In this document: positions 8,248 through 64,000 of the stretch, one piece after another | How positions within the stretch are numbered: the first letter of the stretch is position 1 | How the letters are laid out: each line of letters opens with the position of its first letter | DNA from: an uncultured Gelidibacter sp. | GTDB taxonomy: Bacteria; Bacteroidota; Bacteroidia; Flavobacteriales; Flavobacteriaceae | DNA length: 64,000 bases | Assembly: GCF_947500795.1 (NCBI RefSeq) | Contig: NZ_CANMTE010000004.1 | Location: 334,216 to 398,215, forward strand | Direction: 5' to 3' | The notes under the pieces: model-generated | What the model saw: only the letters and a program-made list of their open reading frames with translations | Databases searched by the model: none | What the model was told of the DNA's origin: nothing | Position numbers and translations under genes: made by a program

Positions 8248-8264
8248 ATCTATTTTAAGATAAA

Positions 8265-10452: not shown

Positions 10453-10646
10453 TAATCTATTATATTTAATTTAGGATAGTGTTTTACTCTGAGAACATAT
10501 ATATGGAAACCACTAAACATTTCCGGTTCTAAACTTCAAATCAAAAGCCTTTCAAGGACATTAATTTGACTGACTGAATAATATCGGCCATTGACGCTTG
10601 TATTCCTGTTGTGCAATACAAGCGTCATGATCCGCTTAAATTAAAT

Positions 10647-23041: not shown

Positions 23042-24270
23042 TGAGCAACAAGAATAAATATATCGTCCTCTTTATCTGCTTTGCATTGGGCCTGTCGTCA
23101 TTCAACAGTTATGGTCAAGATTTGCAATCGTATATTGAAGAAGCCATTGCCAACAACCCTGAGATTCAGAAAGTGGATTTGCAATATAAAATCGCTACTG
23201 AAAAGATCAAGGAAGTCAATAGCTTACCTAACACTGAATTTAATTTTGGTGTGATGGCCATAGCGCCAGAAGTAGAGATGCCTATGGAACGTTTTAGAGT
23301 TTCTGTAATGCAAATGTTGCCTTGGTTTGGCACCATCACCTCGAGAGAAAATTATGCATCAGCGATGGCAGATGCACAATATGTGGAGGTGACCATCGCC
23401 AAACGAAAACTGGCACTTTCAGTCTCCCAACTGTATTATACGCTTTATGAAATTAGAGCAAAGCAGGCGGTACTTCAGAAGAACATTGCGCTTTTAGAGA
23501 CTTATGAGCGACTTGCCCTAACCTCTTTGGAAGTCAATAAGGCTTCTGCCGTTGATGTGTTGAAATTACAAATTAGACAGAACGAATTACAACAGGAAAT
23601 TGACGTTTTAGATCAGCAGAACAAAGGCATACAGGCAGCAATGAACAGCTTATTGAATAAACCTTATGATGCAGCAGTTGAGGTGTCAGAAGCGTTGGAA
23701 ATTCCAGAAAACGATATCATTTTTAGTTACGATAGTTTAGCGGTCAACCCTGAATTGCTCAAATATGATAAATTGTACCAATCTGTTGAACAGTCAGAAT
23801 TGATGAACCTAAAGGAAAGTGTTCCAATAATCGGGCTTGGTGTAGAATATATCAACCAGGAAAAGAGTCCGATGAGTACGAGTTCTTACCAAGATATGGT
23901 GATGCCTATGGTTTCGTTATCCATCCCTATATTTAATAACACTTATAAATCGAGAACGAGACAAAATACGCTTCAAAAACAGGAAATACAATCGCAAAAA
24001 GATGAGCGTTTGAATATGTTGACCGCCGATTTGTCTAAGGCCATTTCGCAGCGTAACCAATCTCGCATAAAATTCAACAGTCAGCAAAAAAACCTGAAGC
24101 AGGCTGAAGATGCGGAAGGCATCCTCATTAAAAATTATGAAACAGGCACTATCGATTTTAATGATGTTTTAGACATTCAGGAGTTGCAATTAAAATTTCA
24201 AATGAATCAAATTGAATCGATCAACATGTATTATGTACAGTCGGCCATCATCAACTATTTAGTTCACTAA
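23041..24270 (+). CDS. TolC-family outer membrane efflux protein
   Basis: Signal peptide, paired coiled-coil regions, start overlaps the cusA stop. Confidence 0.9.
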   Translation: MSNKNKYIVLFICFALGLSSFNSYGQDLQSYIEEAIANNPEIQKVDLQYKIATEKIKEVNSLPNTEFNFGVMAIAPEVEMPMERFRVSVMQMLPWFGTITSRENYASAMADAQYVEVTIAKRKLALSVSQLYYTLYEIRAKQAVLQKNIALLETYERLALTSLEVNKASAVDVLKLQIRQNELQQEIDVLDQQNKGIQAAMNSLLNKPYDAAVEVSEALEIPENDIIFSYDSLAVNPELLKYDKLYQSVEQSELMNLKESVPIIGLGVEYINQEKSPMSTSSYQDMVMPMVSLSIPIFNNTYKSRTRQNTLQKQEIQSQKDERLNMLTADLSKAISQRNQSRIKFNSQQKNLKQAEDAEGILIKNYETGTIDFNDVLDIQELQLKFQMNQIESINMYYVQSAIINYLVH

Positions 24271-24272
24271 TT

Positions 24273-24839
24273 ATGATAAAAGACTTCTACATCAAAAATA
24301 TGGTTTGCGATCGCTGCATTAAGGTGTTACGAGATGAACTGAATGCTCACACTATCGAACTCCTTAACATTGAATTAGGGCGAATCACTTTGGATGTACA
24401 AGACTCAGACACCACAGAAATTTTGGTATCCATATTAGATAAAAATGGGTTTTCATTAATTGACAATCCTGAACTACATCTTGTAGAACAAATAAAAATT
24501 GAACTCATTCAGTTGTTGAAACATTTACCATTACAAATTGAGCAAAAGCTATCCTCCTATTTAGAATCTAAGCTTCACAAGGATTATTTTAAAATGAGCA
24601 AACTTTTCTCAACTAACGAAAGTGTCACCATAGAAAAATATTTTATCAAATTAAAAATAGAAAAAGTGAAAGAGCTGATTCAAAATCAAGCATTGAATTT
24701 TACAGAAATCAGCCAATTGCTCAATTATAGCAACATCAATCACCTGAGCCGACAGTTTAAGAGAGAAACAGGCATGAGTTTGTCAGAGTATAAATCGGCA
24801 CAGAAAAACGACAGAACCTCTTTGGACCAAATTGTATAA
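24273..24839 (+). CDS. AraC-type regulator with N-terminal HMA-like domain
   Basis: N-terminal IKNMVCDRCIKVLRDEL (CxxC); C-terminal FTEISQLLNYSNINHLSRQFKRETGMSLSEYK HTH. Confidence 0.85.
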   Translation: MIKDFYIKNMVCDRCIKVLRDELNAHTIELLNIELGRITLDVQDSDTTEILVSILDKNGFSLIDNPELHLVEQIKIELIQLLKHLPLQIEQKLSSYLESKLHKDYFKMSKLFSTNESVTIEKYFIKLKIEKVKELIQNQALNFTEISQLLNYSNINHLSRQFKRETGMSLSEYKSAQKNDRTSLDQIV

Positions 24840-24903
24840 CAATCAGCCAAGATTATGAAACAAAGTATTGAATATCAATTGTAATTTTGAAAAAACTAAT
24901 CTT

Positions 24904-27315
24904 ATGAGAACATTAAATCTAGTATTTATTCTCACGCTTTTGGGGCTGAATGGCACAGTTGCGCAACAGCTTGAAGGTAACGTTGATAATTTACCCGTAC
25001 AAGAACACAGGCTGACCATTAGGGAAGCTGTGGTTTCTAAAACTGATAAAGAAGTTAAAGCAATGACGGTTAACGGAAGTATCCCTGGGCCAACCCTTGA
25101 ATTTACTGAAGGTGAATATGCGGTGATTTACGTAACAAATGAGATGAGCGTAGAAACGTCCATTCATTGGCACGGCTTGTTGTTACCCAATTTTATGGAC
25201 GGCGTGCCATATTTAACCACGCCACCTATTAAACCAGGAACCACCTTTAAATATGAGTTTCCCTTGCGACAATCCGGCACCTATTGGTACCATTCGCATA
25301 CCATGTTACAGGAACAAAGCGGTGTGTTCGGATCTTTGGTCATTCATCCAAAAGAAAGAACATTAGCGTATGATACTGATTTAGTAGTGATGCTTTCTGA
25401 TTGGACTAATGAGCAACCTAAAGATGTGATGCGCAATTTGAAACGGGGCAATGAGTGGTACCAAATGAAAAAAGGCACCTCTACCCCCTTAAATCAGGTT
25501 ATTGCTCGAGGCGCCTTTGGTTCGCAACTCAACTTTTGGAAACAGCGCATGGAAGGAGCTGATATAGCCGATGTATATTACCCTGCATTTTTAATTAATG
25601 GCGAACCTACTAAGGAGTATCCAAATTTTAAGCCGGGAGAAAAGGTGCGTTTACGCATTATAAATGGCTCTGCTTCGTCTCAATTTTGGATGACTTTTGG
25701 TGGCGAAGCACCACTTTTAGTATCTGCAGATGGTTTGGATGTGGTGCCTGTGGCGCGCTCCAAATCGTTTATTGCAACGGCAGAGACTTACGATTTTATC
25801 ATCACCATTCCTGAAGATGGGAAAGTTGAATTTAAGGCCATGGCGCAAGATGGGTCTGGCACCGCAACGGCATATTTTGGAGAGGGCAATCTGCTTCCGG
25901 CAGAAACCTTGAGTCCGCCAGACAAAATAAAAATGATGCAAGACATGGCAAAGATGGATATGAAGATGGGCGCCCATGCCATAAAATTCCAACCTAAAAA
26001 AGATGAGCGTCATGAAATGAAAGAAGAATACGGAATGAAAATGGATCATGGCAGCATGGCAATGCCAAAAGATGATAAAAAGACAGCACCCATGGATCAT
26101 TCAAAAATGGATCACGATACTATGACAAAATCAAAAGATTCTTCCACCACAAAAAAAATGGATCATTCTAAAATGAACCACGACAACATGGAGATGCCTA
26201 AAGATTCTGCCACCACCAAGGACATGGACCATAGTAAAATGGACCATTCCAAACCTAAAGAAGATCCTGCCGGAATGGATATGGAGGGTATGGACAAGGG
26301 GCCTCAGTACACTTACGATTATTTGAAATCGGCTGAAAAAACCACCTATGATACCAACCTGCCCGTAAAAGAGATTTTGTTAAATCTTACCGGGAATATG
26401 CAACGCTATATTTGGAGCATGAACGGTGTGCCGTTAAGCGAGGCCGATAACATAAAGATAAAAAGTAGTGAGGTTACCCGCATCACTTTTAATAACCTGA
26501 CCATGATGCACCATCCGATGCATCTTCACGGCCATTTTTTCAGGGTTATTAATGAAAATGGCGATTATTCACCTCTAAAACATACGGTGAATGTCCCGCC
26601 AATGGAAGAAGTAACCATCGAATTTAGTGGCAATGATGGGGATGAAAACGGCGATTGGTTTTTTCACTGTCACATTCTTTACCATATGATGAGCGGGATG
26701 GCACGTATTGTGAGTTATGATACACCTCGCGACTCAAGGATGGAACAACACCCTGTAACACATTTAATCAACGAGGCGGATCAGTATTACACCTGGTCGC
26801 TTTTAGATGTGGCCTCCCATATGGCTGAATTTAATTTTGTGGCTTCAAATCTCCGTAATCAATTTAATGTATCAGCGGAATATGGCTGGAATGAAAATTT
26901 AGAGGCCGAAGTAACCTATGAGCGTTATTTACATGATTATTTCCGAGTTTTTGTTGGGGTCAATGTTGAAAATGAACTAGAGGATAGTTTGGACGAGATC
27001 AATACCACGGCCATTGCAGGGATCCGATTTTTAACCCCATACTTATTCAACTTGGATGTGCGAATGGACAGCAAACTTAGACCACAAATCAGTTTGAGCC
27101 GAGAACTGTTGGTATTCCCAAGAACCGCCATTTTTGGCAATTATGAATATCAAGCAGATTTTGGTTGGGTAGACCCTCTCCCAACAGGAGAAAATTATTC
27201 CAATGAAGTCAGTTGGAATGCCGGTATAGAATATTACCTGTCACGAGATTTTTCACTTACAGCCAGTTACGATAACCGTTTTGGTGCAGGTGGTGGACTA
27301 TCACTCAGGTTTTGA
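24904..27315 (+). CDS. Multicopper oxidase with Met/His/Asp-rich linker and C-terminal beta-barrel-like domain
   Basis: HWHGLLLPN, YWYHSH, HPMHLHGHFF and HCHILYHMMSGM copper sites; MDHSKMDH linker; CopB-like strand-rich tail ending ...LSLRF. ATG at 24904 preferred (signal peptide). Confidence 0.88.
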   Translation: MRTLNLVFILTLLGLNGTVAQQLEGNVDNLPVQEHRLTIREAVVSKTDKEVKAMTVNGSIPGPTLEFTEGEYAVIYVTNEMSVETSIHWHGLLLPNFMDGVPYLTTPPIKPGTTFKYEFPLRQSGTYWYHSHTMLQEQSGVFGSLVIHPKERTLAYDTDLVVMLSDWTNEQPKDVMRNLKRGNEWYQMKKGTSTPLNQVIARGAFGSQLNFWKQRMEGADIADVYYPAFLINGEPTKEYPNFKPGEKVRLRIINGSASSQFWMTFGGEAPLLVSADGLDVVPVARSKSFIATAETYDFIITIPEDGKVEFKAMAQDGSGTATAYFGEGNLLPAETLSPPDKIKMMQDMAKMDMKMGAHAIKFQPKKDERHEMKEEYGMKMDHGSMAMPKDDKKTAPMDHSKMDHDTMTKSKDSSTTKKMDHSKMNHDNMEMPKDSATTKDMDHSKMDHSKPKEDPAGMDMEGMDKGPQYTYDYLKSAEKTTYDTNLPVKEILLNLTGNMQRYIWSMNGVPLSEADNIKIKSSEVTRITFNNLTMMHHPMHLHGHFFRVINENGDYSPLKHTVNVPPMEEVTIEFSGNDGDENGDWFFHCHILYHMMSGMARIVSYDTPRDSRMEQHPVTHLINEADQYYTWSLLDVASHMAEFNFVASNLRNQFNVSAEYGWNENLEAEVTYERYLHDYFRVFVGVNVENELEDSLDEINTTAIAGIRFLTPYLFNLDVRMDSKLRPQISLSRELLVFPRTAIFGNYEYQADFGWVDPLPTGENYSNEVSWNAGIEYYLSRDFSLTASYDNRFGAGGGLSLRF

Positions 27316-27356
27316 TAAAAATTAAATAGAATTATTCACCATAAAATGTTAACCCT

Positions 27357-27743
27357 ATGAATTATTATTTTAGTAAAACCGTCAAAGGAACTTTTGAAGA
27401 AGTTATCGACAAAGTCACAAAAGGCTTGAAGGAAGAAGGTTTTGGCATTCTCACGGAAATAGATATAAAGGAAACCCTCAAGAAAAAACTCAATGTAGAT
27501 TTTAAGAACTATACAATCTTAGGTGCATGCAACCCTCCATTTGCTCATAAAGCTTTGGTGGCAGAAGATAAGATTGGGACGATGTTACCGTGCAATGTCA
27601 TTGTTCAAGAAATAGAGCCAGGTGTTATGGAGGTTGCGGCTGTAAATCCGATGGCCTCTATGCAAGCAGTAGAAAATGAAGAACTTCATGAAATTGCTTC
27701 CCAAATAACAGCACTGCTGGAAGCTATTATTGCTAAATTATAA
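27357..27743 (+). CDS. DUF302 domain-containing protein
   Basis: VTKGLKEEGFGILTEIDIKETLKKKL...LGACNPPFAHKAL motif. Confidence 0.88.
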   Translation: MNYYFSKTVKGTFEEVIDKVTKGLKEEGFGILTEIDIKETLKKKLNVDFKNYTILGACNPPFAHKALVAEDKIGTMLPCNVIVQEIEPGVMEVAAVNPMASMQAVENEELHEIASQITALLEAIIAKL

Positions 27744-27798
27744 GAATATTAACTTAGTAATCAATTATAAATTAAAACAACCCTTAAACAATTAACAA

Positions 27799-28386
27799 AT
27801 GAAAACAATTAAAAGAAGTATTGGATCCGTAGCACTTGCCGCAACCTTAATGTTAACCGTATCGTGCAAAGACGCAAGCAAAACTGAAGCCACTACAACT
27901 AGTGAAAGTACTACTGAAAACACGGTAGCATCACAAGAATCGGTAGCCACGTCTGATAAACAAGACGCCAAAGCTGAGGTTATTTTAAAAGATTATTTTA
28001 ACTTGAAGGATGCATTGGTAGGTGATGATGGTGAAAAAGCGAAAGAATTTGGAGCGACTTTGACCAACTCATTAAAAGCTTTTGAGGTTTCAAATTATTC
28101 TGCTGACGAGCAAACCGAGTTAAAAGAAATTATAGAGGATGCAACAGAACATGCAGAGCATATTGCAGAAAGTGATATTAAACACCAACGTGAGCATTTT
28201 AAAACCTTAAGTAAAGACATCACTGATATGGTGGCTATCACAGGTACAAAAATGACTTTATATGAGCAGTTTTGCCCAATGTACGATCGTGGGTCTGCAT
28301 GGTTAAGCACCAAGGAAGAAATTAGAAATCCTTACCATGGGAGTGCAATGTTAAAATGTGGTTCAGTACAGCGTACAATCAACTAA
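27799..28386 (+). CDS. DUF3347 domain-containing lipoprotein
   Basis: Lipobox (TVSCKD); QREHFKTLS...[36 protein letters not shown]. Confidence 0.85.
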
Positions 28387-28842
28387 ATGAAGGTTATTAA
28401 AATTATAGCAGGGATAGCTCTTTTTCTATTTGTAGCGATTCAATTTTTCCCTACAGATAGAAATGAGAGCTATACTGTACCTCCTTCTGATTTTATGTTG
28501 GTGAATACCGTGCCAATTGACATTCAGAAGAGATTGAAAGCATCATGTTATGATTGTCATAGTAACCTTACAGCATACCCTTGGTACAATAAAGTTCAGC
28601 CCATTGCTTGGTTTTTAGAAGACCATGTTAAAGAAGGCAAGGCTGAACTTAATTTTAGTGAATGGGATACCTATTCTGACAGAAGAAAAAGAAGCAAGTT
28701 ACGCTCAATAATCAAACAAATTGAAAATGATGAAATGCCTTTAATAAGTTACACGTATCTTCATAGAGAAGCCATATTATCTGAAGAGGATGCTAACATC
28801 ATCATCAATTTCATGAATCAATTGAAGGATAGCTTACAATAG
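28387..28842 (+). CDS. Haem-binding domain (CxxCH) protein
   Basis: N-terminal TM; CYDCHSNLTAYPWYNKVQPIAWFLEDHVKEGK. Confidence 0.85.
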   Translation: MKVIKIIAGIALFLFVAIQFFPTDRNESYTVPPSDFMLVNTVPIDIQKRLKASCYDCHSNLTAYPWYNKVQPIAWFLEDHVKEGKAELNFSEWDTYSDRRKRSKLRSIIKQIENDEMPLISYTYLHREAILSEEDANIIINFMNQLKDSLQ

Positions 28843-29037
28843 ACTCTTAATAGAGAGAAAGGGTCAGTACATAACTTTTAATGCCCTTTCTCTCATTTAA
28901 GCAGACTTGATTAGTGATTAAGAAATCTTAGAGGTAAAAGTCACCAAGAAATCCACTTTGAAAGTCAGTACATTAATTATTTATAAAAATCATCATGGTT
29001 TTTTGAAACGCTTAGTTCACAACTCTAATTACAAAAA

Positions 29038-31764
29038 ATGAAACATACATATCACATACAAGGAATGACCTGCAATGGCTGTAGAAATCATGTTGAACAA
29101 ACACTTTCCAAAGTGGATGGGGTTACGAATGCTGTAGTAGATTTAGACAAAGCAGAAGCCACTATAGAAATGGCGTCGCATATTTCTCTCGAAACGTTTC
29201 AAAAGGCACTTCAAAAAGATGGTGGTAATTACAGTATTCACCTACCAAAGGTTGATGAGAAGGGAGACATGGTCACCACATATCAAATTCAAGGCATGAC
29301 CTGCAACGGTTGTCGGAGCCATGTAGAGCAAATACTATCAAAAGTGGATGGGGTTTCCAATGCTATGGTCGATTTAGAAAAAGCGGAAGCTACTATTGCC
29401 ATGTCCACTCACATTCCCCTAAAAACCTTTCAAAAAGCTTTAAAAGAAGATGGTGACAGTTATACCATTCACCCATTAGGCACAAAACCAGCGGAAAAGA
29501 CTTCTGCCAAAGCTGCAAAAAATGGCAACGGCACTTTTTACTGCCCTATGCATTGTGAAGGTGATAAAACCTACGATAAACCTGGCGATTGTCCTGTATG
29601 CGGAATGGATTTGGTGGAAGAGCAAAACCTATCTGCAGTGACAGCCCAACAATGGACTTGCCCGATGCATCCTGAAGTAATTAAAGATGAAGCTGGCGCC
29701 TGCCCTATTTGCGGCATGGATCTCGTACCTATGGAACCAGATTTGTCTTCTGAAGAAAAGACCTATAAAAAATTATTGAAGAAGTTTTGGATAGCCGTGG
29801 CATTCACGCTACCTATTTTCTTTATCGCCATGAGCGAAATGATTCCAAACAATCCGCTGTATGAGGTGATGGATCAAAAAATGTGGAATTGGATCCAATT
29901 CGGATTATCGATTCCGGTGGTATTCTACGCTACCTGGAAGTTCTTTGAACGCGCCTATCGCAGTATCAAAACCTGGAACCTCAACATGTTTACTCTCATT
30001 GGCATTGGTGCCGGTGTGGCGTGGCTTTTCAGTGTCTTCGGGATGTTAGTTCCTGATTTTTTCCCTGAACAGTTTAAAACAGAATTTGGCGCGGTTCACG
30101 TCTATTTTGAGGCGGCCACAGTGATTCTTACCTTGGTATTGATGGGTCAAGTTTTGGAAGCTCGTGCCCATAGTAAAACAAATTCTGCCGTCAAGGAATT
30201 ATTAAAACTCGCCCCGAATAAAGCAATCAGAGTTGTTGATGGTGTTGAAGAAGAAGTCTCCATTGATCATATTCATAAAGGCGATATTTTACGTGTTAAA
30301 CCGGGTGATAAAATCCCTGTGGATGGCGTGGTTACTGAAGGCGAAACCACGGTTGATGAATCGATGATTTCCGGCGAGCCTATTCCAGTAAATAAAGCAT
30401 TAGATGATAAAGTGAGCAGCGGCACCATTAATGGCAATCAAACATTTTTGATGAAAGCGGAAAAAGTGGGAAGTGATACCCTACTCTCTCAAATTATTCA
30501 GATGGTTAACGACGCGAGCCGCAGTCGTGCACCAATTCAGAAGTTAGCAGATACCGTTTCTGGGTATTTTGTTCCGGTGGTCGTGCTCATCTCTGTCATT
30601 ACATTTTTCGTGTGGGTATTTTGGGGACCAGAACCAGCCTATGTGTACGGTTTGGTCAATGCCATTGCGGTATTAATTATTGCCTGCCCATGTGCTTTAG
30701 GATTGGCCACACCAATGTCCGTTATGGTAGGTGTGGGTAAAGGCGCGCAAAATGGCGTGTTAATTAAAAATGCCGAAGCTCTAGAAAAAATGGACAAGGT
30801 GGACACCTTAATCGTTGATAAAACAGGCACGATTACCGAAGGCAAACCTACTGTAGAAAAGATGGGTTCTTTTAGTGCTGGTCTGTCTGACATGGATATT
30901 GCACACCGCATCGCATCCTTGAACAGTTCCAGCGAGCATCCCCTTGCGGAAGCCACGGTAAAATATGCTAAAGAACAAAAAGTCAGCATTTCAAAAACAG
31001 ACAAGTTCAGCGCGGTCACCGGAAAAGGCGTGGAAGGTACGGTTAATGGCGAAAAATTAAATTTAGGAAACGCCAAGATGATGGCCCACGCCAATGCGAC
31101 AATTTCACCAGAAATGGAAGCAGAAGCACAAGCATTCCAAAAACAAGGGAAAACCGTTTCGTATTTGGCTATAGACGGCAAGGTTTCGGGCTATGTGGTG
31201 ATTAGTGATAAAATCAAACAAACCAGTGCGAAAGCCATTAAAGAATTACAGGACAAAGGCATCGCGGTGATTATGCTTACGGGCGATAATCATGACACTG
31301 CCCAAGCGGTCGCAACGGAATTGAATCTTACCAATTTTATGGCAGGCATGCTACCTGAGGATAAGTTGAAGGAAGTCACCAAACTGCAGCAACAAGGCAA
31401 AGTGGTAGCGATGGCTGGCGACGGCATTAATGATGCGCCTGCGCTTGCTAAAAGTGATGTAGGCATTGCGATGGGCACAGGAACCGATGTTGCCATTGAA
31501 AGTGCGATGATCACCTTGGTAAAAGGCGATTTACACGGCATTGTTAAAGCACGGAATTTGAGTCATGCCGTGATGCGCAATATTAAACAGAATCTATTTT
31601 TTGCTTTGATTTATAACACCCTTGGGGTTCCTGTTGCGGCAGGTGTTTTATTCCCATTTTTCGGAATATTATTATCGCCAATGATTGCGGCATTGGCTAT
31701 GAGTTTTAGTTCTGTGTCCGTTATAGGAAATGCACTTAGACTACGCTCAAAATCAATCGGATAA
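29038..31764 (+). CDS. copA: Copper-translocating P1B-type ATPase with tandem HMA and tandem CPMH/CGMD metal-binding modules
   Basis: Two MTCNGC HMA domains, two CPMH...CPxCGMDL modules, CPCALGLATP, DKTGTITEGKP, GDGINDAPALA. Confidence 0.95.
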   Translation: MKHTYHIQGMTCNGCRNHVEQTLSKVDGVTNAVVDLDKAEATIEMASHISLETFQKALQKDGGNYSIHLPKVDEKGDMVTTYQIQGMTCNGCRSHVEQILSKVDGVSNAMVDLEKAEATIAMSTHIPLKTFQKALKEDGDSYTIHPLGTKPAEKTSAKAAKNGNGTFYCPMHCEGDKTYDKPGDCPVCGMDLVEEQNLSAVTAQQWTCPMHPEVIKDEAGACPICGMDLVPMEPDLSSEEKTYKKLLKKFWIAVAFTLPIFFIAMSEMIPNNPLYEVMDQKMWNWIQFGLSIPVVFYATWKFFERAYRSIKTWNLNMFTLIGIGAGVAWLFSVFGMLVPDFFPEQFKTEFGAVHVYFEAATVILTLVLMGQVLEARAHSKTNSAVKELLKLAPNKAIRVVDGVEEEVSIDHIHKGDILRVKPGDKIPVDGVVTEGETTVDESMISGEPIPVNKALDDKVSSGTINGNQTFLMKAEKVGSDTLLSQIIQMVNDASRSRAPIQKLADTVSGYFVPVVVLISVITFFVWVFWGPEPAYVYGLVNAIAVLIIACPCALGLATPMSVMVGVGKGAQNGVLIKNAEALEKMDKVDTLIVDKTGTITEGKPTVEKMGSFSAGLSDMDIAHRIASLNSSSEHPLAEATVKYAKEQKVSISKTDKFSAVTGKGVEGTVNGEKLNLGNAKMMAHANATISPEMEAEAQAFQKQGKTVSYLAIDGKVSGYVVISDKIKQTSAKAIKELQDKGIAVIMLTGDNHDTAQAVATELNLTNFMAGMLPEDKLKEVTKLQQQGKVVAMAGDGINDAPALAKSDVGIAMGTGTDVAIESAMITLVKGDLHGIVKARNLSHAVMRNIKQNLFFALIYNTLGVPVAAGVLFPFFGILLSPMIAALAMSFSSVSVIGNALRLRSKSIG

Positions 31765-31783
31765 TCATTTAAAACCAAACACA

Positions 31784-32278
31784 ATGGAAGAGGATCACAC
31801 AAGGAAACAACACAACATGAAGAAAAATCAATACACCAAATTTGTAGGTATGCTGGCAGCATCGTTTGTAGCGATGTACATCACCATGTATTTAAACACC
31901 TACGCTTTTGACCATGTATATTTTAGCTTGACGCGTTTTTACATGTCATGTCTGGGTATTTCTGCCATGGCCATAATTATGTTCGTGGCCATGCGAAATA
32001 TGTATCAAAATAAGAAAAAGAATATGGCTATCATATTTGGGAGTATCGCCCTATTTATTGGTGCATTCAGCTTAGTGCGCGCTCAGGCACCAATTGTTGG
32101 TGATGTGTTATGGATGAAAGCGATGATTCCGCACCATTCCATTGCCATTCTGACCAGTGAGCGTGCTGCTATTAAAGATCCTGAAGTCAAACAACTGGCT
32201 GATGATATCATCAAGGCTCAGAGAAAAGAAATTGAAGACATGAAAAAGATGATTAACCGTTTACAAAATGAAAATTAG
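31784..32278 (+). CDS. DUF305-like membrane protein
   Basis: TM segments followed by DVLWMKAMIPHHSIAILTSERAAIKDPEVKQLADDIIKAQRKEI. ATG at 31784 preferred. Confidence 0.75.
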   Translation: MEEDHTRKQHNMKKNQYTKFVGMLAASFVAMYITMYLNTYAFDHVYFSLTRFYMSCLGISAMAIIMFVAMRNMYQNKKKNMAIIFGSIALFIGAFSLVRAQAPIVGDVLWMKAMIPHHSIAILTSERAAIKDPEVKQLADDIIKAQRKEIEDMKKMINRLQNEN

Positions 32279-32283
32279 AACTA

Positions 32284-34011
32284 ATGAATAAACAGATTTT
32301 AACTATCAGTATTGCAGTTGTTGTTGGTCTTTTGGCAGGCTGGCTCATATTTGGAAATAAGGATGCAGCATCCAAAAATGCTGCTGACCAGCATGATCAC
32401 GCAGGAGAAACTGCAGCTCAAATGTGGACCTGCTCCATGCACCCACAAATTATGCAGGCTGAACCGGGCGATTGTCCGTTATGTGGTATGGACCTTACTC
32501 CGGCCGAATCGGGTGCTGATGGTCTTGCCATGAATGAGATAAAAATGACCGAAAATGCGATGGCCTTGGCAAATATCCAAACAACGGTTGTGGGGAGTGC
32601 AGTTGCTGATGATGCTGCTGACGGCATGATTTCACTATCCGGAAAAATTGCGATCAACGAAGAAAACAAGTCGGTGCAATCGAGTTATTTTGACGGGCGT
32701 ATTGAACGCTTGAATGTGAGTTATGAAGGGCAACAAGTCAACAGAGGACAATTGCTAGCTACCATTTATGCACCAAACTTAGTGGCCGCACAACAGGAAT
32801 TAATTACCACGGCGTCGTTAAAAGCATCACAACCTGCTTTATATAACGCTGTTCGCAATAAATTAAAAAATTGGAAACTGTCCGAAAAACAAATTGACGC
32901 TATTGAAACATCAGGCAAAGTATTGGAAAATTTCCCAATCTATGCGACAGTTTCCGGTACCGTTTCAGAAGTCATGGCCAGAGAAGGCGATTATGTGAAG
33001 CAAGGGCAACCTATTCTTAAAGTGAGTAATTTAAACTCCGTGTGGGCACAATTTGATGCTTATGAAAGTCAAATTTCAAACTTAAAGGAAGGCCAAAAGA
33101 TTAAGGTGGTTGCCAATGCGTATCCAACTAAAGAGTTTGATGCAACGGTATCGTTTATTGACCCGATGTTAAATAATGCTACACGTACGGTGACGGTAAG
33201 AGCGACCCTTAAAAACACGGACGACTTGTTTAAACCTGGAATGTTTGTGACCGGAAAAATCAAAGGTGCAACAACAGCCAGCAGCGAGATGTTAACCATT
33301 CCTGCAAGCGCGGTTATGTGGACGGGAGAACGCTCATTGGTATATGTAAAGACGGATCCTAATGCCCCAGTTTTTGAAATGCGCGAAGTGACTATTGGGA
33401 ATCGTAATGGTTCACAATATACAATCACTAAAGGTTTGAACAACGGCGATGAGATTGTCACCAACGGAACGTTTACCGTAGATGCTGCAGCACAATTGCA
33501 AGGTAAAAACTCGATGATGAATAAAGGAAAGGAAAAACATGCTCAGGTGCCACTTTCTGAAATGAAAATTGAATTGTCAGAAAAATTCCAAAAAGAGTTT
33601 ATGAAGATTCTCAATCCTTATCTTCAAATGAAAGATGCTTTTGTTGCAAGTGATGCCAAACAGATTTCAGCCCACGCTAAAACGACGTTAAAAGCGCTTA
33701 AATCATTAAAATTAGAGGATTTAGGACAGACGGAAAAAGCCCATATGATTAAAAGTATTGAAATGGTTGAGGTCATTTCAAAGAATGACGATTTGGATAA
33801 TCAACGTGAACATTTCGTCATCTTAAATGAAAATTTAGTGCCAATAGCGATGAACGTCAAAATATTAGACGCGGCACTTTATGTTCAAAAATGTCCGATG
33901 GCCAATAACGATAAAGGCGCCATTTGGTTGAGCCACGAAGAAGCGGTCAGAAATCCGTATTATGGAGACCAAATGATGACCTGCGGAAGTGTGATTGAAA
34001 CCGTAAAATAA
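32284..34011 (+). CDS. cusB: CusB-like RND periplasmic adaptor with N-terminal CSMH/CGMD module and C-terminal DUF3347 domain
   Basis: WTCSMHPQIMQAEPGDCPLCGMDLTP; membrane-fusion core; tail QKCPMANNDKGAIWLSHEEAVRNPYYGDQMMTCGSV. Confidence 0.9.
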   Translation: MNKQILTISIAVVVGLLAGWLIFGNKDAASKNAADQHDHAGETAAQMWTCSMHPQIMQAEPGDCPLCGMDLTPAESGADGLAMNEIKMTENAMALANIQTTVVGSAVADDAADGMISLSGKIAINEENKSVQSSYFDGRIERLNVSYEGQQVNRGQLLATIYAPNLVAAQQELITTASLKASQPALYNAVRNKLKNWKLSEKQIDAIETSGKVLENFPIYATVSGTVSEVMAREGDYVKQGQPILKVSNLNSVWAQFDAYESQISNLKEGQKIKVVANAYPTKEFDATVSFIDPMLNNATRTVTVRATLKNTDDLFKPGMFVTGKIKGATTASSEMLTIPASAVMWTGERSLVYVKTDPNAPVFEMREVTIGNRNGSQYTITKGLNNGDEIVTNGTFTVDAAAQLQGKNSMMNKGKEKHAQVPLSEMKIELSEKFQKEFMKILNPYLQMKDAFVASDAKQISAHAKTTLKALKSLKLEDLGQTEKAHMIKSIEMVEVISKNDDLDNQREHFVILNENLVPIAMNVKILDAALYVQKCPMANNDKGAIWLSHEEAVRNPYYGDQMMTCGSVIETVK

Positions 34012-57194: not shown

Positions 57195-58286
57195 TTATAA
57201 ATAACTTTTCCCATAGCCATCCAAATCATCTAAAGGACTTTTAACCTGATTTATTTGTTTTTGGGTGACATGCGTATAAATCATGGTGGTTTTAATGTTG
57301 TGATGCCCCAATAAATCTTGAATTATTCTAATATCTGTACCTGTTTGCAGCAGATGAGATGCATAGCTATGTCGCAAACCATGTATTCCTATTGATTTAT
57401 TAATCCGAGCTTTTTGCATGGCATTCCTAAAAACACTTTGCACACTCCCTTTGGAATATTGTCCGCCATACTGACCTTCCAACAAATATTCTTTTGGCTT
57501 AAACTCATAATAATACGCCCTTAGCAACGGCACCACGGAAGTTGGCAGTGGGACATACCTGTCTTTTTTCCCTTTTCCTGCCGCGATGAGCACAATTTTA
57601 TCTTTAGAATTGATGTGCGCTAATTTTAGATTCACCACTTCACTTACCCGCAATCCCATACCATAACACAGTTGCAATGCCAAAAGATGCTTGGCGTTAG
57701 TCACCTGACGGAACAGTCTTTTTATTTCTTGTTGTGTGAGTAATTTTGGCAATGTTGACGGTTTTTTAGGACGTGGAATGTCAAAAAACATTTTGTTGTG
57801 GTGAAGCACCTGCTCAAAATAAAATTTAATGGCATTGATCTTACCATTAAGTTTTCGCTCCTTCATTTTCTCATTCTTTAGGCAGTAAAGGAAATACGCC
57901 TTAAGCCTTTCCGGCGTTAGTTTGTCGACTGGATACTCTCTAATTAAGAGCAGCAAATGTTTTAATTCAGCACAATACACACGGACGGTGTTCTGGCTAT
58001 AGGCTTTAAGTTGTAATTGGTTTATGAAATCTGACATTGCCTTTTGGTTGACAGGATGGATATCTTGCAACCATTTATTTTCAATGTCTTCTTGGGGCAT
58101 TTGCAATGCCGTTCTAACAGCGGGAAGATCGGGCATGTACCAGGATTTATAGGTTGGATTCCATCGGGCAGAAGGCAATTTCTTTTTCAAATCGTTTATG
58201 AGTGCGTGCTCGTACGGAAACTTGATCCAAATGACTTGTTTATTATGGAGTATTCCTGATTGAAAGTTGCATTTGTCTAAGTTCAT
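57195..58286 (-). CDS. Tyrosine recombinase, putative integron integrase (IntI-like, divergent from the cassette array)
   Basis: Catalytic R-H-R-H-Y: GMGLRVSEVVNL, IHGLRHSYASHLLQTG, LLGHHNIKTTMIYTHV; C-terminal VKSPLDDL resembling the IntI RSPLD tail; divergent from the attC-flanked cassettes. Confidence 0.85.
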   Translation of the reverse strand: MNLDKCNFQSGILHNKQVIWIKFPYEHALINDLKKKLPSARWNPTYKSWYMPDLPAVRTALQMPQEDIENKWLQDIHPVNQKAMSDFINQLQLKAYSQNTVRVYCAELKHLLLLIREYPVDKLTPERLKAYFLYCLKNEKMKERKLNGKINAIKFYFEQVLHHNKMFFDIPRPKKPSTLPKLLTQQEIKRLFRQVTNAKHLLALQLCYGMGLRVSEVVNLKLAHINSKDKIVLIAAGKGKKDRYVPLPTSVVPLLRAYYYEFKPKEYLLEGQYGGQYSKGSVQSVFRNAMQKARINKSIGIHGLRHSYASHLLQTGTDIRIIQDLLGHHNIKTTMIYTHVTQKQINQVKSPLDDLDGYGKSYL

Positions 58287-58452
58287 AGCACCTTGTTATA
58301 AGGTATATCACAACAAAACAACATTAGGATATACATCCTAAAGATATACAAAATAAGCAACACCAAAACCAATTAACCCATTGATTTTCAAGGAACAGCA
58401 TAAGACTACACTATTTTGACAATTTGTAGAAGATATTTAATATATTTGAGTG
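58287..58452 (+). promoter_or_regulatory. Putative attI region with promoter reading into the cassette array
   Basis: Between integrase start and first GTT core; TTTG (58415-58418)-N22-TATATTTG (58441-58448) fits the Bacteroidota TTTG/TAnnTTTG promoter; inverted repeat TAGGAT-ATAC-ATCCTA at 58325-58340. Confidence 0.6.
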
Positions 58453-59420
58453 TTGTAAGTAATGCCGAAAAACCCAGAAACCAAGTGAATAAAACAATAT
58501 TTGAAATTACCAAAATGGATTGTCCTTCAGAGGAAAATCTTATCCGAATGAAATTGGACGGAATTTCAAGCATTGCGAATTTGGACTTTGATATTCCGAA
58601 TCGAAAATTGACCGTTTTTCACAGCGGAGAAATTGACCAAATCGAAAAGTCCGTTATCGAATTGAATTTAGGTGGAAAAAAAATCTCAACGGAACAAACC
58701 GACCAAACGGAATTTAAAGAAAACGAAAATCAGAAAAAACTACTTTGGTCTGTACTTGCCATAAATTTTGCTTTTTTCATTATTGAAATGACAACAGGAA
58801 TTATCTCAAAATCTATGGGACTTGTTGCCGATAGTTTAGATATGCTTGCGGACAGTTTTGTGTACGGAATTAGTTTGTTTGCGGTTGGCGGAACAGTAAT
58901 AAAGAAAAAACGGATTGCCAAACTTGCTGGATATTTTCAAATAATACTTGCGATTATTGGATTTGTAGAAGTCTTGAGAAGATTTTTCGGAAACGAGAAA
59001 CTTCCCGATTTTTCAACAATGATTATAGTTTCGATTTTTGCACTTATTGCAAACGGAATTTGTCTTTATATTTTGCAAAAGTCAAAGAGCAAAGAAGAAG
59101 CACATATGAAAGCGAGTATGATTTTCACTTCGAATGACGTGATTATCAATTTGGGAGTAATTATTGCAGGAATTTTAGTGCATTATTTGAGTTCTAATAA
59201 ACCTGATTTGATTATCGGAACAATTGTTTTTGCATTGGTAATTCAAGGAGCATTTCGGATTTTGAAATTAAGTAAGTGAACTAAAAAAGCACTACTTACA
59301 ACAACGTGTATAATTAATGGCTGGTTCTCGCCTACTTACGAAAATCCTCGCGGATTTTCTATTCGGTTTTTATTTGCTAAATTAGGTGCTTAAACACGCC
59401 ACTAATCATACACAAAACCG
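58453..59420 (+). mobile_element. Integron cassette 1 (968 bp, cation transporter)
   Basis: Starts after G of GTTGTAAGTAATGC (58452-58465); its R'' GCACTACTTACAAC (59289-59302) is complementary at 13/14 positions. Confidence 0.85.
58485..59279 (+). CDS. CDF-type cation transporter with N-terminal HMA-like domain
   Basis: N-terminal FEITKMDCPSEENLIRMKLDG; TM region SKSMGLVADSLDMLADSFVYGISLFAVG. GTG at 58485 preferred because the listed start lies in the attI. Confidence 0.85.
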   Translation: MNKTIFEITKMDCPSEENLIRMKLDGISSIANLDFDIPNRKLTVFHSGEIDQIEKSVIELNLGGKKISTEQTDQTEFKENENQKKLLWSVLAINFAFFIIEMTTGIISKSMGLVADSLDMLADSFVYGISLFAVGGTVIKKKRIAKLAGYFQIILAIIGFVEVLRRFFGNEKLPDFSTMIIVSIFALIANGICLYILQKSKSKEEAHMKASMIFTSNDVIINLGVIIAGILVHYLSSNKPDLIIGTIVFALVIQGAFRILKLSK

Positions 59421-59429
59421 TTGTGGTGC
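59289..59429 (+). other. attC-like site 1
   Basis: R'' TTACAAC to R' GTTGTGG about 131 bp; arms GTGTATAATTAATGG (59306-59320) and CCACTAATCATACAC (59399-59413), 13/15 complementary. Confidence 0.85.
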
Positions 59430-60117
59430 ATTTGAGAAAAACCGAAATACTATGAAACTGAACTACATAATATCATTTTTAACGTTGATTTTAATCAATA
59501 GTAATTTATTTGGACAAGCGAAAAAATTTGACATAGAAAATGGAGAAATAAAACCTATAGTGCAATCCATAGACGGAATGAAAAGCGACTCGCTTTATAT
59601 CAAATCTAATGAATGGATTAATTACAATTTTAAAAAAGCAGATGCTGTAATTGGTAGTGCAATTGACAATAAAATGATAAGGTTTACTGGAATTAATCCA
59701 AGTTTTGCAAAAAGTTTCGGTTACACTTACGACCTCGAATTTACAGTCAGAATTAAATTTAAAGAAAACCGATATAAACTGACAATCGAAAATTTACGCT
59801 CTGGAAATAACGGAACATTTGCGAATTTTAATTTAGAAGATTATTATAAATCAAATGGACAACCAAGAAAAGCGTATAAAGACTTTGTTGTCGGAATTGA
59901 AAATACGTTGGACAATCTAAATTTATCAATCTATAATTATTTAACTGGAAAGACAGAAAAAAATGATGATTGGTAAAAAACAAAAAACGCACCACAACAC
60001 CGTATAAAAATAATTGCGGTTTAGTGCTTAATCAAAGGTCGTTGCGTGTTTGTAACGTCTGATTTTCCTTCGGAAAATCCTCGCATACAAACCCGCAACT
60101 ATTCTTATACATAAACG
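59421..60117 (+). mobile_element. Integron cassette 2 (697 bp)
   Basis: Start GTTGTGGTGC (59420-59429) perfectly complementary to its R'' GCACCACAAC (59989-59998). Confidence 0.88.
59452..59976 (+). CDS. Secreted hypothetical protein (cassette gene; DUF4468-like fold possible)
   Basis: ATG at 59452 giving signal peptide MKLNYIISFLTLILINSNLFGQA. Confidence 0.7.
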   Translation: MKLNYIISFLTLILINSNLFGQAKKFDIENGEIKPIVQSIDGMKSDSLYIKSNEWINYNFKKADAVIGSAIDNKMIRFTGINPSFAKSFGYTYDLEFTVRIKFKENRYKLTIENLRSGNNGTFANFNLEDYYKSNGQPRKAYKDFVVGIENTLDNLNLSIYNYLTGKTEKNDDW

Positions 60118-60125
60118 TTACCCAC
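59989..60125 (+). other. attC-like site 2
   Basis: R'' CCACAAC to R' GTTACCC about 132 bp; arms GTATAAAAATAATTGCGG (60002-60019) and CCGCAACTATTCTTATAC (60093-60110), 16/18 complementary. Confidence 0.88.
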
Positions 60126-60239
60126 AAGCTAAAAAAAGAGCAATACACCAAAAATGTTTCATTTTTCCATAACCATTTCCAGTAAAAGATTTTAAGTTCC
60201 TATCAAAACTTAAAAAAGGAATAGACTATTCAATTATTT

Positions 60240-60255
60240 ATCGTAATATTGCAAT
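60240..60255 (+). promoter_or_regulatory. Putative ArsR operator/promoter element ATCGTAATATTGCAAT
   Basis: Identical to 696-711 upstream of the other arsR. Confidence 0.6.
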
Positions 60256-60278
60256 TAAACAATGAAGGGATATAAAAA

Positions 60279-60587
60279 ATGTATACTGACCAACAAAAAG
60301 AAATCGCTCTATTCGCAAAAGTCTTCGGACATCCTGCTCGAGTAGCTATTTTACAACAATTATTTAGAATTGATGCTTGCTATTGCGGAGATTTATCCGA
60401 ACAAATTGGTCTTGCCCAACCTACTATATCACAACATTTAAAAGAATTAAAAACCTTAGGACTAATTAAAGGGACTGTTGAAGGTGTCAAAGTGTGCTAT
60501 TGTATTGACAATGAAAACTGGACTAAAATGAAAGTTTTAATGCATCAATTCTTAGATCAAGACATTCCTAAAACAGATTGTTGCTAA
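60279..60587 (+). CDS. arsR: ArsR/SmtB-family transcriptional regulator
   Basis: ACYCGDLSEQIGLAQPTISQHLKELKTLGLIKG; close paralog of 730-1062. Confidence 0.92.
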   Translation: MYTDQQKEIALFAKVFGHPARVAILQQLFRIDACYCGDLSEQIGLAQPTISQHLKELKTLGLIKGTVEGVKVCYCIDNENWTKMKVLMHQFLDQDIPKTDCC

Positions 60588-60639
60588 ATTTTTTAATTAA
60601 ATCAATCGTTAAATCGCAATAAACAAATAATATAAAGAT

Positions 60640-61107
60640 ATGAAGCTATCAGAGATTAAAAATAAATTAAATATACTAGATAAGATTGCTTTCCAGTTAC
60701 CGAACGGAGAATTAGTACCCAACCACTTTCACGTAACAGAAGTTGGAAAAATCACAAAACATTTTATTGACTGTGGAGGAACTGTGAGAAAGGAAGAAGT
60801 TGCAAACTTCCAACTTTGGAATGCAAATGACTATGACCACAGGTTGCATCCAGAAAAACTATTAAGCATTATTGAACTATCCGAACACATTCTAGGCACT
60901 GGAGATTTAGATATCGAGGTGGAATATCAAGGTAATACGATTGGGAAATTCGGACTTGACTTTGATGGTAAAAACTTTTTGTTGACCAATAAAAAAACCG
61001 ATTGTTTGGCAAAAGATAAATGTGGGATTCCTGAAGAAAAACCAAAAACAAAGCTATCTGAACTAAAAAATGAACCTTCTTGCTCGCCAGGCAGTGGCTG
61101 TTGCTAA
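60640..61107 (+). CDS. DUF6428-like arsenic-operon protein with Cys tail
   Basis: Between arsR and the LMW phosphatase-like gene; ends SCSPGSGCC. Confidence 0.7.
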   Translation: MKLSEIKNKLNILDKIAFQLPNGELVPNHFHVTEVGKITKHFIDCGGTVRKEEVANFQLWNANDYDHRLHPEKLLSIIELSEHILGTGDLDIEVEYQGNTIGKFGLDFDGKNFLLTNKKTDCLAKDKCGIPEEKPKTKLSELKNEPSCSPGSGCC

Positions 61108-61130
61108 AATAATAATTTAATATTAGGAAA

Positions 61131-61766
61131 ATGTCAATAACAAAACCAACAATGTTTTCAGAAATTGAACAAGTAATTAAGGGATTAAATCCTCAAACAA
61201 TTTCAGTTGAACGTAAAGCAATTTTACAGTCGCTAACGGATTTTGTTCAGTCTAAAGTTTCAAATCATCGAGAAATTAGAATCAACTTTATCTGTACTCA
61301 CAATTCACGAAGAAGTCATTTATCACAGGTTTGGGCACAAACTTTAGCGCATTATTTTAATGTCAAGAATGTATTTTGTTATTCAGCTGGTACAGAGAGC
61401 ACAGCACTTTTTCCAATGGTTGCAGAAACTTTACGAAATTCGGGTTTTCAAATTAAAACTATTTCAAAAAGCGAAAATCCTGTTTACAGCATTAAATATA
61501 CGTACAACCAGCATCCAATAATCGGATTTTCAAAAAGATTGGATGACGATTTTAACCCGAAATCTGAATTTGTTGCAATTATGACTTGCGATTCAGCAAA
61601 CGAAGCCTGTCCATTTGTTAGCGGAGCAGAAAAACGGATTCCCATAACTTTTGAAGACCCAAAAGCATTTGACAATACACCACAACAGGCAGAAAAGTAT
61701 AATGAAAGAAGTCTGCAAATTGCAACAGAACTGTTTTACGTTTTCTCTCAAATAAAAACCTCCTAA
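61131..61766 (+). CDS. Low-molecular-weight phosphatase-type arsenate reductase-like protein
   Basis: FICTHNSRRSHLSQVWAQTLA P-loop; MTCDSANEACPFVSGAEKRIPITFEDPKAFDNTP. Confidence 0.88.
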   Translation: MSITKPTMFSEIEQVIKGLNPQTISVERKAILQSLTDFVQSKVSNHREIRINFICTHNSRRSHLSQVWAQTLAHYFNVKNVFCYSAGTESTALFPMVAETLRNSGFQIKTISKSENPVYSIKYTYNQHPIIGFSKRLDDDFNPKSEFVAIMTCDSANEACPFVSGAEKRIPITFEDPKAFDNTPQQAEKYNERSLQIATELFYVFSQIKTS

Positions 61767-61804
61767 ATGTTTTCAAAACCTTTTAATTCAAAATAGAACT
61801 AATT

Positions 61805-62221
61805 ATGGAATACCAAATTAAAGGATTAGCCATTTCAAATAAAGACGCTGCTATTCAAATAAAGCAAAGCGATATAGTTTTCGGAACAACATCAAAGTCT
61901 GCTGAAATTTTACCTAATCCTGCCGAGTTGTTTTTAGGAGCTTTTGCTTCGTGTATGTTGAAAAATGTCGAGCGTTTTTCTTCGATGATGAAGTTCACTT
62001 ATTTGAAAGCCACAGTAGATGTGTCAGCTATACGAACGGAAAAACCATTGAAAATGGATCATATAGCTTATAAACTAATTATTTACAGTTCTGATGAAAG
62101 TTTAAATATTCCATTGCTAAAAAAGAATATTGAAAAATTTGGCACAATATACAATACGGTAAAGTTATCGTGCAATATAGACGGAGCCATTGAACAGGAA
62201 AAAGACTTATTAAATAATTAG
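61805..62221 (+). CDS. OsmC-family protein
   Basis: NPAELFLGAFASCMLKNVERFSSMM...KLSCNIDGAIE. Confidence 0.85.
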   Translation: MEYQIKGLAISNKDAAIQIKQSDIVFGTTSKSAEILPNPAELFLGAFASCMLKNVERFSSMMKFTYLKATVDVSAIRTEKPLKMDHIAYKLIIYSSDESLNIPLLKKNIEKFGTIYNTVKLSCNIDGAIEQEKDLLNN

Positions 62222-62233
62222 AAAAAAGAGGTT

Positions 62234-63274
62234 ATGAAAAAAATGAGTTTTCTCAATAATTATTTAACGCTATGGATATTTCTTGCTATGCTCTTGGGCG
62301 TAGCAATTGGGTTTTTCTATCCTTCCTTTCCAAGCATTATTGATTCAATGAGTAGAGGCACTACAAACATTCCCATAGCAATAGGATTAATTTTAATGAT
62401 GTATCCACCTTTGGCTAAAGTGAACTATGCTCTTTTGCCAAAAGTTTTTAGAAACACTAAAATTCTTTCCATCTCACTTTTTCTAAACTGGATAATTGCT
62501 CCCGTTTTAATGTTTGTTTTGGCAATTACTTTTTTACGTGATTATCCAGAATATATGGTAGGTGTTATTTTAATCGGATTAGCTCGCTGTATCGCAATGG
62601 TTTTAGTTTGGAACGACCTTGCTGAAGGAGATAGCGAATATGGAGCTGGTTTGGTCGCTTTAAATAGTATTTTCCAAGTTTTTGCCTATAGTTTCTATGC
62701 TTGGATTTTTATAACGGTTCTTCCACCGTATTTTGGATTTGAAGGAGCTATTGTCGATATCTCAATTGCTACTGTTGCAGAAAGTGTAGCAATCTATTTG
62801 GGTCTACCCTTTTTAATGGGAATTTTAAGTAGAGTGATTTTGGTAAGGTTAAAAGGAGAAAAGTGGTATACAGAAAAGTTTATTCCTGCCATTTCACCAA
62901 TAACGCTAATTGCGTTATTATTTACCATTGTCATTATGTTCTCGCTCAAAGGAGAGTTAATAGTTGAAATTCCAATGGACGTTTTAATTATTGCAGTTCC
63001 TTTAATTTTGTATTTTAGTTTAATGTTCATCATCAGTTTTTTCTTTACTAAAGCAATGGGAGCTTCCTATAAGGAAAATGCAGCCGTCTCATTTACAGCG
63101 GCAGGAAATAACTTTGAATTAGCGATTGCTGTTGCTATAGCAGTATTTGGACTAAATTCCGGACAGGCTTTTGCGGGTGTAGTTGGACCATTAGTTGAAG
63201 TTCCAGTTCTTATCTTTTTGGTTCGAGTTTCATTTTGGTTAAAGAAAAAATATTATGACAAAGTCAGTATTTGA
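62234..63274 (+). CDS. ACR3-family arsenite efflux transporter
   Basis: [80 protein letters not shown]. Confidence 0.95.
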
Positions 63275-63298
63275 TGACGTATTAAAGAAAGAAAGCCA

Positions 63299-63430
63299 GT
63301 GGGTAACATTGTATAAGCGTAATGCGGGATTTATAGCTAAATTGAACATTTCGTCAAGTAATAAAAATTTATATAAAATGAAAGTATCATCTTCGAAAGC
63401 CCGCACTACGCTTATACTTGACCGTTGTAA
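63299..63430 (+). other. attC-like site 3
   Basis: R'' GGGTAAC to R' GTTGTAA 130 bp; arms TATAAGCGTAATGCGGG (63312-63328) and CCCGCACTACGCTTATA (63400-63416), 16/17 complementary. Confidence 0.9.
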
Positions 63431-63435
63431 AACAT

Positions 63436-63912
63436 TTGAAAAAACCAATCTACATAGCGTTAATCCTTGGTATTCTGACAAGTTGTTCGGTAAATAAAAC
63501 TATTTCCGAAATCAAGAATTACGTAAATGTAATAGAAAATCGAACTGACCTCAATGAATCTATAACAGAATATAATACAGAGCATTTAAATGGAGAAGTT
63601 GTTGGTGGAACTTCGACCTATGAATTAACTGACGAACAAAATAAACTCTACCGAATAATAACGGAAACAGCTCAACCAAATGATTCATCAGCTAACTTTG
63701 AGTTTTATTATAAAGAAAAAGTCTTGGTTTTTGCTAAAGTCTTACAATTTTCAAATAAAAAAGCAGAATTAGATACAATTACAAATACAGAATTATATTT
63801 TAATAAAGGGAAACTAATAAAGCAAATTGATTTTAAACCAAAAAAAATAGATTCCGAAAAAATAAAGTTATTAGCCGAATCTTATACTGTTGAAGGACTT
63901 GGAACAAAATAA
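63436..63912 (+). CDS. Hypothetical lipoprotein (cassette gene)
   Basis: TTG start at 63436 gives KKPIYIALILGILTSCSVN lipoprotein signal. Confidence 0.65.
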   Translation: MKKPIYIALILGILTSCSVNKTISEIKNYVNVIENRTDLNESITEYNTEHLNGEVVGGTSTYELTDEQNKLYRIITETAQPNDSSANFEFYYKEKVLVFAKVLQFSNKKAELDTITNTELYFNKGKLIKQIDFKPKKIDSEKIKLLAESYTVEGLGTK

Positions 63913-63919
63913 AAAACGC

Positions 63920-64000
63920 TTTACAACAAAGAACTGAGGCAAAAAACAAGCCTATTCTCCATTAAATTTTGACAAATGTGTTCCTGGCATTGTTGAAGTG
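63920..64000 (+). other. attC-like site 4, truncated at the window edge
   Basis: R''-like TTTACAAC after the stop; the other sites are about 131 bp, so R' is expected near 64050. Confidence 0.55.

Follow-up and report, generated by a model that had tools for sequence, protein, structure and literature searches.

The intI genes of Treponema-type integrons are co-oriented with their arrays and encode canonical IntI enzymes, and XerA is the recombinase that resolves chromosome dimers at dif. Standard integron finding identifies the integrase by its IntI domain. In the available portions of a classification of tyrosine recombinases (Smyshlyaev 2021, PMC8138268), an 'integron-like' subgroup of the simple tyrosine recombinases is recognised in which the insertion is not fully conserved, the insertion (the additional domain) is deemed essential for integron function, and no Bacteroidota arrays are described. 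Canonical strand choice hangs on one extrahelical G (PMC2727003). For the Bacteroidetes, the IntegronFinder 2.0 paper lists a single complete integron, that of Salinibacter ruber, and otherwise nothing but In0 elements (PMC9024848), and a Flavobacteriaceae genome paper using IntegronFinder reported no integrons (PMC10013915). Arrays such as those reported below were not found described in the literature searched, which excluded preprints and covered few subscription journals; an earlier description elsewhere is not excluded.

The locus analysed here lies at the right end of a stretch of 64,000 nucleotides (the window) from an uncultured Gelidibacter sp. As in IntI integrons (class 1, Vibrio superintegron), a divergently oriented integrase gene, an attI site, head-to-tail cassettes joined at GTT and large arrays were found, and the sites are likewise bottom-strand hairpins with R and L boxes, an asymmetric central spacer and AACG at R'. 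Unlike in IntI integrons, the integrase lacks the additional domain and carries an extra N-terminal domain, and the sites have conserved G.T wobbles and a 10-bp R arm with 7 free bases, rarely fit GTTRRRY or RYYYAAC and have no universal extrahelical G. The integrase matches XerA (4a8e, 5hxy) in domain length and in having no insertion but differs from it in heading a cassette array and in its N-terminal domain. Treponema-type integrons share their co-orientation with a second Bacteroidota group described below, whereas the window integrase is divergent. Taken as a whole, the gene is best explained as encoding the integrase that serves an integron-like platform in Bacteroidota (probability about 0.87), with catalysis by this protein being inferred.

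The Integrase Gene

The gene (57195..58286, minus strand) starts with ATG and encodes a tyrosine recombinase of 363 residues in a single uninterrupted frame, with catalytic residues R213, K238, H302, R305, H328 and Y337. The preliminary description had proposed that the IntI-specific insertion was lacking, and this was borne out by a single alignment in which the spacing from the catalytic R to H was 89 residues in the window integrase and 89-94 in 44 Bacteroidota relatives, against 131 in all six true IntIs; XerC/D-type proteins gave 94-96 and 12 other relatives 87-96. The IntI patch of about 40 residues is therefore absent. The earlier estimate of roughly 97 residues between GMGLRVSE (from residue 209) and HGLRH (from residue 302) came close to the measured R-to-H distance. 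The RKHRHY catalytic hexad was intact in the alignment of Bacteroidota relatives, with Y missing in one of them.

Profile comparisons agreed. TIGR02249, the IntI profile, scored 189 bits on the window integrase (cut-off 265; true IntIs 373-505), and the HMMER matches to this profile and to IntI4 (2a3v) were broken into two stretches around the gap. By the domain and profile tests that define an IntI, the protein is not one. In the NCBIfam ranking, TIGR02249 and XerA_Arch (NF040815; 203.7 bits, cut-off 220) were nearest, both below cut-off, and the Pfam matches were Phage_integrase and Phage_int_SAM_4. The closest solved structures by sequence were archaeal XerA (Pyrococcus abyssi 4a8e, Thermoplasma 5hxy) and IntI4, so that a grouping with unrelated phage integrases, one half of what would have refuted the preliminary description, was not observed. 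The whole protein was predicted by AlphaFold2 with a mean pLDDT of 87.

The extra N-terminal segment noted previously is also real: residues 1-62 (58101..58286, minus strand) are predicted to form a small domain of topology b-b-a-b-b-a, common to the Bacteroidota relatives and modelled by AlphaFold2 on its own with a pLDDT of 82. Its suggested likeness to HARP domains was not confirmed. No Pfam HARP match was obtained for this segment, Foldseek with the domain returned nothing at E<0.5, and the sole hint was the best PDB profile match, the HARP domain of SMARCAL1 (4o66), at a non-significant E=0.8; assignment to the HARP family was rejected as unsupported.

The Window Array

To the right of the integrase gene and in divergent orientation lies an array consisting of attI, three complete attC-like sites and four cassettes; the cassette array that had merely been assumed in the preliminary description is real, with its attI, attC sites and cassette boundaries identified. 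The attI site (58437..58454, plus strand) reads TATATTTGAGTG/TT, with the recombination point inferred within the GTT at 58452-58454, and is situated on the 5' side of the integrase gene, 165 bp from its start codon. Relatives of the same subgroup have CACATATTTAYGTG/TT in front of their first cassette, at a distance of 146-185 bp on the 5' side of the start codon. The segment between the integrase gene and attI (58287..58360, no strand assigned) contains a GATATAC/GTATATC-type inverted repeat, of the form TTTTGTATATCA...TGATATACAAAA, whose position is kept in relatives (L038-L053); by inference, it may be an operator, a promoter or a set of accessory integrase sites. The dus gene was considered as a fixed integration site and rejected, since none of the integrases of the relatives has a dus homologue within 1.5 kb.

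Cassette 1 (58453..59420, plus strand) encodes an HMA protein and a cation-efflux transporter and has relatives with the same ends in genome G159 (90% identity) and in Algibacter (L116, 87%). At its right end lies attC1 (59300..59422, minus strand), the bottom strand of which folds. Cassette 2 (59421..60117, plus strand), encoding a DUF4468 protein, contains attC2 (59996..60119, minus strand). Cassette 3 (60118..63424, plus strand) comprises five genes for ArsR, a DUF6428 protein, an LMWPc arsenate-reductase-like protein, OsmC and an SBF/ACR3-type transporter, and has attC3 (63305..63426, minus strand) at its right end. Cassette 4 (63425..64000, plus strand), encoding an unknown protein, and the start of attC4 (63917..64000, minus strand) are both cut where the window reaches the contig end; the R'' of attC4, as read from the sequence, is CGCTTTACAAC and is complementary to the first bases of that cassette. 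The presence of an entire arsenic operon in one 3.3-kb cassette is unusual in size. Elsewhere in the window, a probable arsenite methyltransferase (1097-1984) and a probable copper/heavy-metal cluster with efflux pumps, a P-type ATPase and a multicopper oxidase (19247-34011) were noted, both assigned from ORF sequences only.

Evidence for Mobile Cassettes

Plain repeat finding missed most of the array, since what the sites have in common is structure more than sequence. A detector based on structure only (AACA...CGTT with stem pairing) identified 348 sites on the array strand, compared with 8 on the opposite strand and 7 in Markov sequence, over 848 kb. The hairpin is supported by covariation: 11 pairs of the alignment had changed on both sides, where shuffles gave 6.5 and none of 500 reached this number, and 93.5% of cells were paired, against 32-54% when partners were slid. 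As the alignment holds no more than 23 sites, which also served to draw the structure, the controls weigh more than the percentage.

The junctions retain a signature that is expected if the site of a circular cassette was split on insertion: the first cassette bases (TT plus 7) were complementary to the cassette's own R'' in 67-91% of cases at each position, as compared with 29-58% when the R'' of another cassette was taken, and at least 6 of the 7 bases were complementary in 222 of 275 own pairs, against 129 of 2759 other pairs. Next to attI, too, the first cassette is complementary to its own R''. The longest ORF lay on the array strand in 249 of the 259 cassettes with an ORF of at least 60 residues.

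Identical cassettes of 557-901 bp were found at separate places of one array between unrelated flanks. Window cassette 1 recurs in G159, a different genus with an integrase of the other group, with base-exact ends at GTT; the 150-bp flanks of the two copies are 47% and 53% alike, as against 50% for random pairs. A further site, attC2, is identical over a core of 122 nt to an attC in G014, again of another genus. The cassettes are thus mobile units in one orientation, on genomic evidence only. The identical cassettes, and those 90% identical in different genera, show that arrays of this kind have been active recently. The crossover can be placed within GTT from the junctions, and its assignment to G/TT would rest on analogy. 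The locus works like an integron, recombination by the window integrase being inferred.

Architecture of the attC Sites and Strand Bias

The preliminary description had suggested that attC might be recognised differently by this enzyme, and the sites do depart from canonical ones in features that IntI reads, although recombination itself is inferred. R' fitted GTTRRRY in 19 of the 348 sites and R'' fitted RYYYAAC in 20, with both fitting in 3. No universal extrahelical G was found in the L'' arm of 97 folded sites; the L stem had no bulge at all in 51 of these, T being the commonest bulge. A strand code based on extrahelical bases, tried as a candidate, was present in part only. G.T wobbles, with A.C mismatches on the top strand, occurred without exception at two positions in the alignment of 23 sites, G31.T117 and G14.T131 when numbered by the first row of alignment A1; one of the two (L-stem position 12) was kept in 99% of 135 sites, these being related and many of them from few arrays. 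A mismatch at L-stem position 17 was left out of the argument because its count is dominated by few arrays. Of the 348 sites, 321 were more stable as bottom than as top strand, with a mean difference of 2.5 kcal/mol, and it is inferred that the conserved wobbles together with this stability bias set strand choice. A subclass of sites of about 210 nt with a larger terminal structure was also observed (L050, L053, L059 and others).

Relatives and a Second Group of Recombinases

An integrase 55-62% identical to the window protein is encoded in 13 of 251 Flavobacteriaceae genomes, including that of the window, and is separated by a clear gap from the next relatives at about 39% identity. At 11 of the 13 loci of this subgroup, sites are found 5' of the integrase in array orientation and in divergent layout, and at the other two the contigs end within 4 kb. 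The locus L078, from an uncultured Flavobacteriaceae bacterium, has the same layout as the window.

Other Bacteroidota recombinases, which are about 33-41% identical and likewise lack the IntI domain, make up a second group that is co-oriented with its arrays and located at the array head. One member (L083) scores 234.9 bits with XerA_Arch NF040815, and the homologue on a Chryseobacterium plasmid is named 'site-specific tyrosine recombinase/integron integrase' by NCBI. Arrays behind a second-group recombinase were found in the complete genomes checked (G014, G159, G161, G040, G032, G057, G025, G024, G021 and G132). Very large arrays of about 60-80 sites occur in G040 (L070-L072; about 80 sites over 57 kb), G014 (L058-L061; about 60 sites over 68 kb) and G161 (L067-L068). 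The protein search found no matching recombinase near the G161 array (L067-L068) or the G014 cluster at 2215-2263 kb. In the window's own genome, contig C6 (L008, G000:C6:128000-145000) carries, at about 6600-10600, a second array with a co-oriented recombinase of the other group at its head.

Proposed Mechanism and Alternative Explanations

Starting from the observed array, cassette boundaries, site structure, integrase linkage and cassette sharing, the following mechanism is proposed, in which catalysis by the window protein and the single-strand route are inferred. Cassettes would be released in circular form and integrated at attI, about 165 bp upstream of the integrase start codon, and the newest cassette would consequently adjoin attI. 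The substrate of the integrase would be the bottom strand of attC in its folded state, with four predicted parts: an R arm of 10 bp, made up of GTT and 7 bases specific to the cassette, whose pairing would be complete only while the cassette is a circle; an asymmetric internal loop (5x2); an L stem of 18 bp; and a variable terminal part. Crossover would take place within GTT, by analogy at G/TT. Because the IntI patch is missing and there is no universal extrahelical G, strand choice is proposed to come from the conserved G.T wobbles, which become A.C mismatches in the top strand, and from the asymmetric loop, a role inferred for these elements in the same way as that of the N-terminal domain, which may aid binding. 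Against this explanation speak the essential role ascribed to the additional domain in integron function (PMC8138268) and the lack of the window subgroup in most site-bearing genomes.

Of the alternatives, the one that survives best, although unlikely, is that the integron is real and the window integrase is a passenger, the cassettes being moved in trans by another recombinase such as that of the co-oriented C6 group. Cassettes and attC sites are shared between arrays of the two integrase groups, so the window enzyme could be minor or inactive in its own array, and its genome does hold a second such recombinase with an array. However, the motif and position of attI are conserved with the window subgroup, the catalytic residues are intact, and 11 of the 13 subgroup loci are linked to arrays.

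A still less likely explanation is that the locus is a degenerate canonical integron with an inactive IntI that has lost its additional domain and with relic sites. The window integrase and IntI do have a C-terminal SPLD motif in common, and a common origin is not excluded by the trees: IntI (support 100/99) and the window subgroup (100/100) form separate, fully supported clades, and neither a grouping of the window subgroup with IntI nor a single Bacteroidota clade was rejected by AU tests. On the sequences, loss of the domain from IntI and an independent origin thus both remain possible, and the question is unresolved. Against degeneration stand the uniformity of the short form in 44 relatives and the recent array activity evident from repeated identical cassettes and from cassettes 90% identical between genera. 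Xer-like recombinases are found beside many kinds of repeats, and a chance neighbourhood of such an enzyme with terminal-repeat transposons, a shufflon or REP-like palindromes, rather than an integron, is very unlikely, as it is already contradicted by the own-R'' complementarity and the base-exact recurrence of cassette 1, and further by head-to-tail orientation, GTT junctions, covariation, attI, cassette-sized units with genes in a single orientation and the absence of such sites from 20 genomes of other phyla.

Distribution and Significance

A covariance model of the sites detected them in 29 of 30 genomes of the family and, at E<=1e-6, in 76 of 198 Bacteroidota genomes, as against none of 20 from other phyla, one of which was a Nitrosomonas carrying two canonical intI genes. 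No canonical IntI was found in the 121 genomes of the family that were searched, none of which gave a TIGR02249 score above the cut-off, whereas 4 of 4 positive controls did. Most site-bearing genomes do not contain the window integrase subgroup (13 of 251 genomes). Integron-like arrays are therefore common, and sometimes very long, in a phylum thought to be nearly integron-free. We lean, with reservations, towards the broader interpretation that the Bacteroidota possess an unrecognised, phylum-wide second kind of integron, in which Xer-like recombinases use folded single-stranded attC sites without the IntI domain, wobbles and an asymmetric loop take the place of extrahelical bases, and the origin is possibly independent of IntI. 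If the enzyme works as inferred, the locus asks whether the additional domain is needed for recombination of folded single strands, and a large mobile gene pool, metal resistance included, is opened in a major phylum.

Two further observations concern recombinases outside the window. The Chryseobacterium sp. SNU WT5 plasmid (L055) carries a second-group array, and such platforms can therefore be mobile. In G101, eight near-identical copies of a 304-residue recombinase (32% identical) were found, which probably represent a transposable element.
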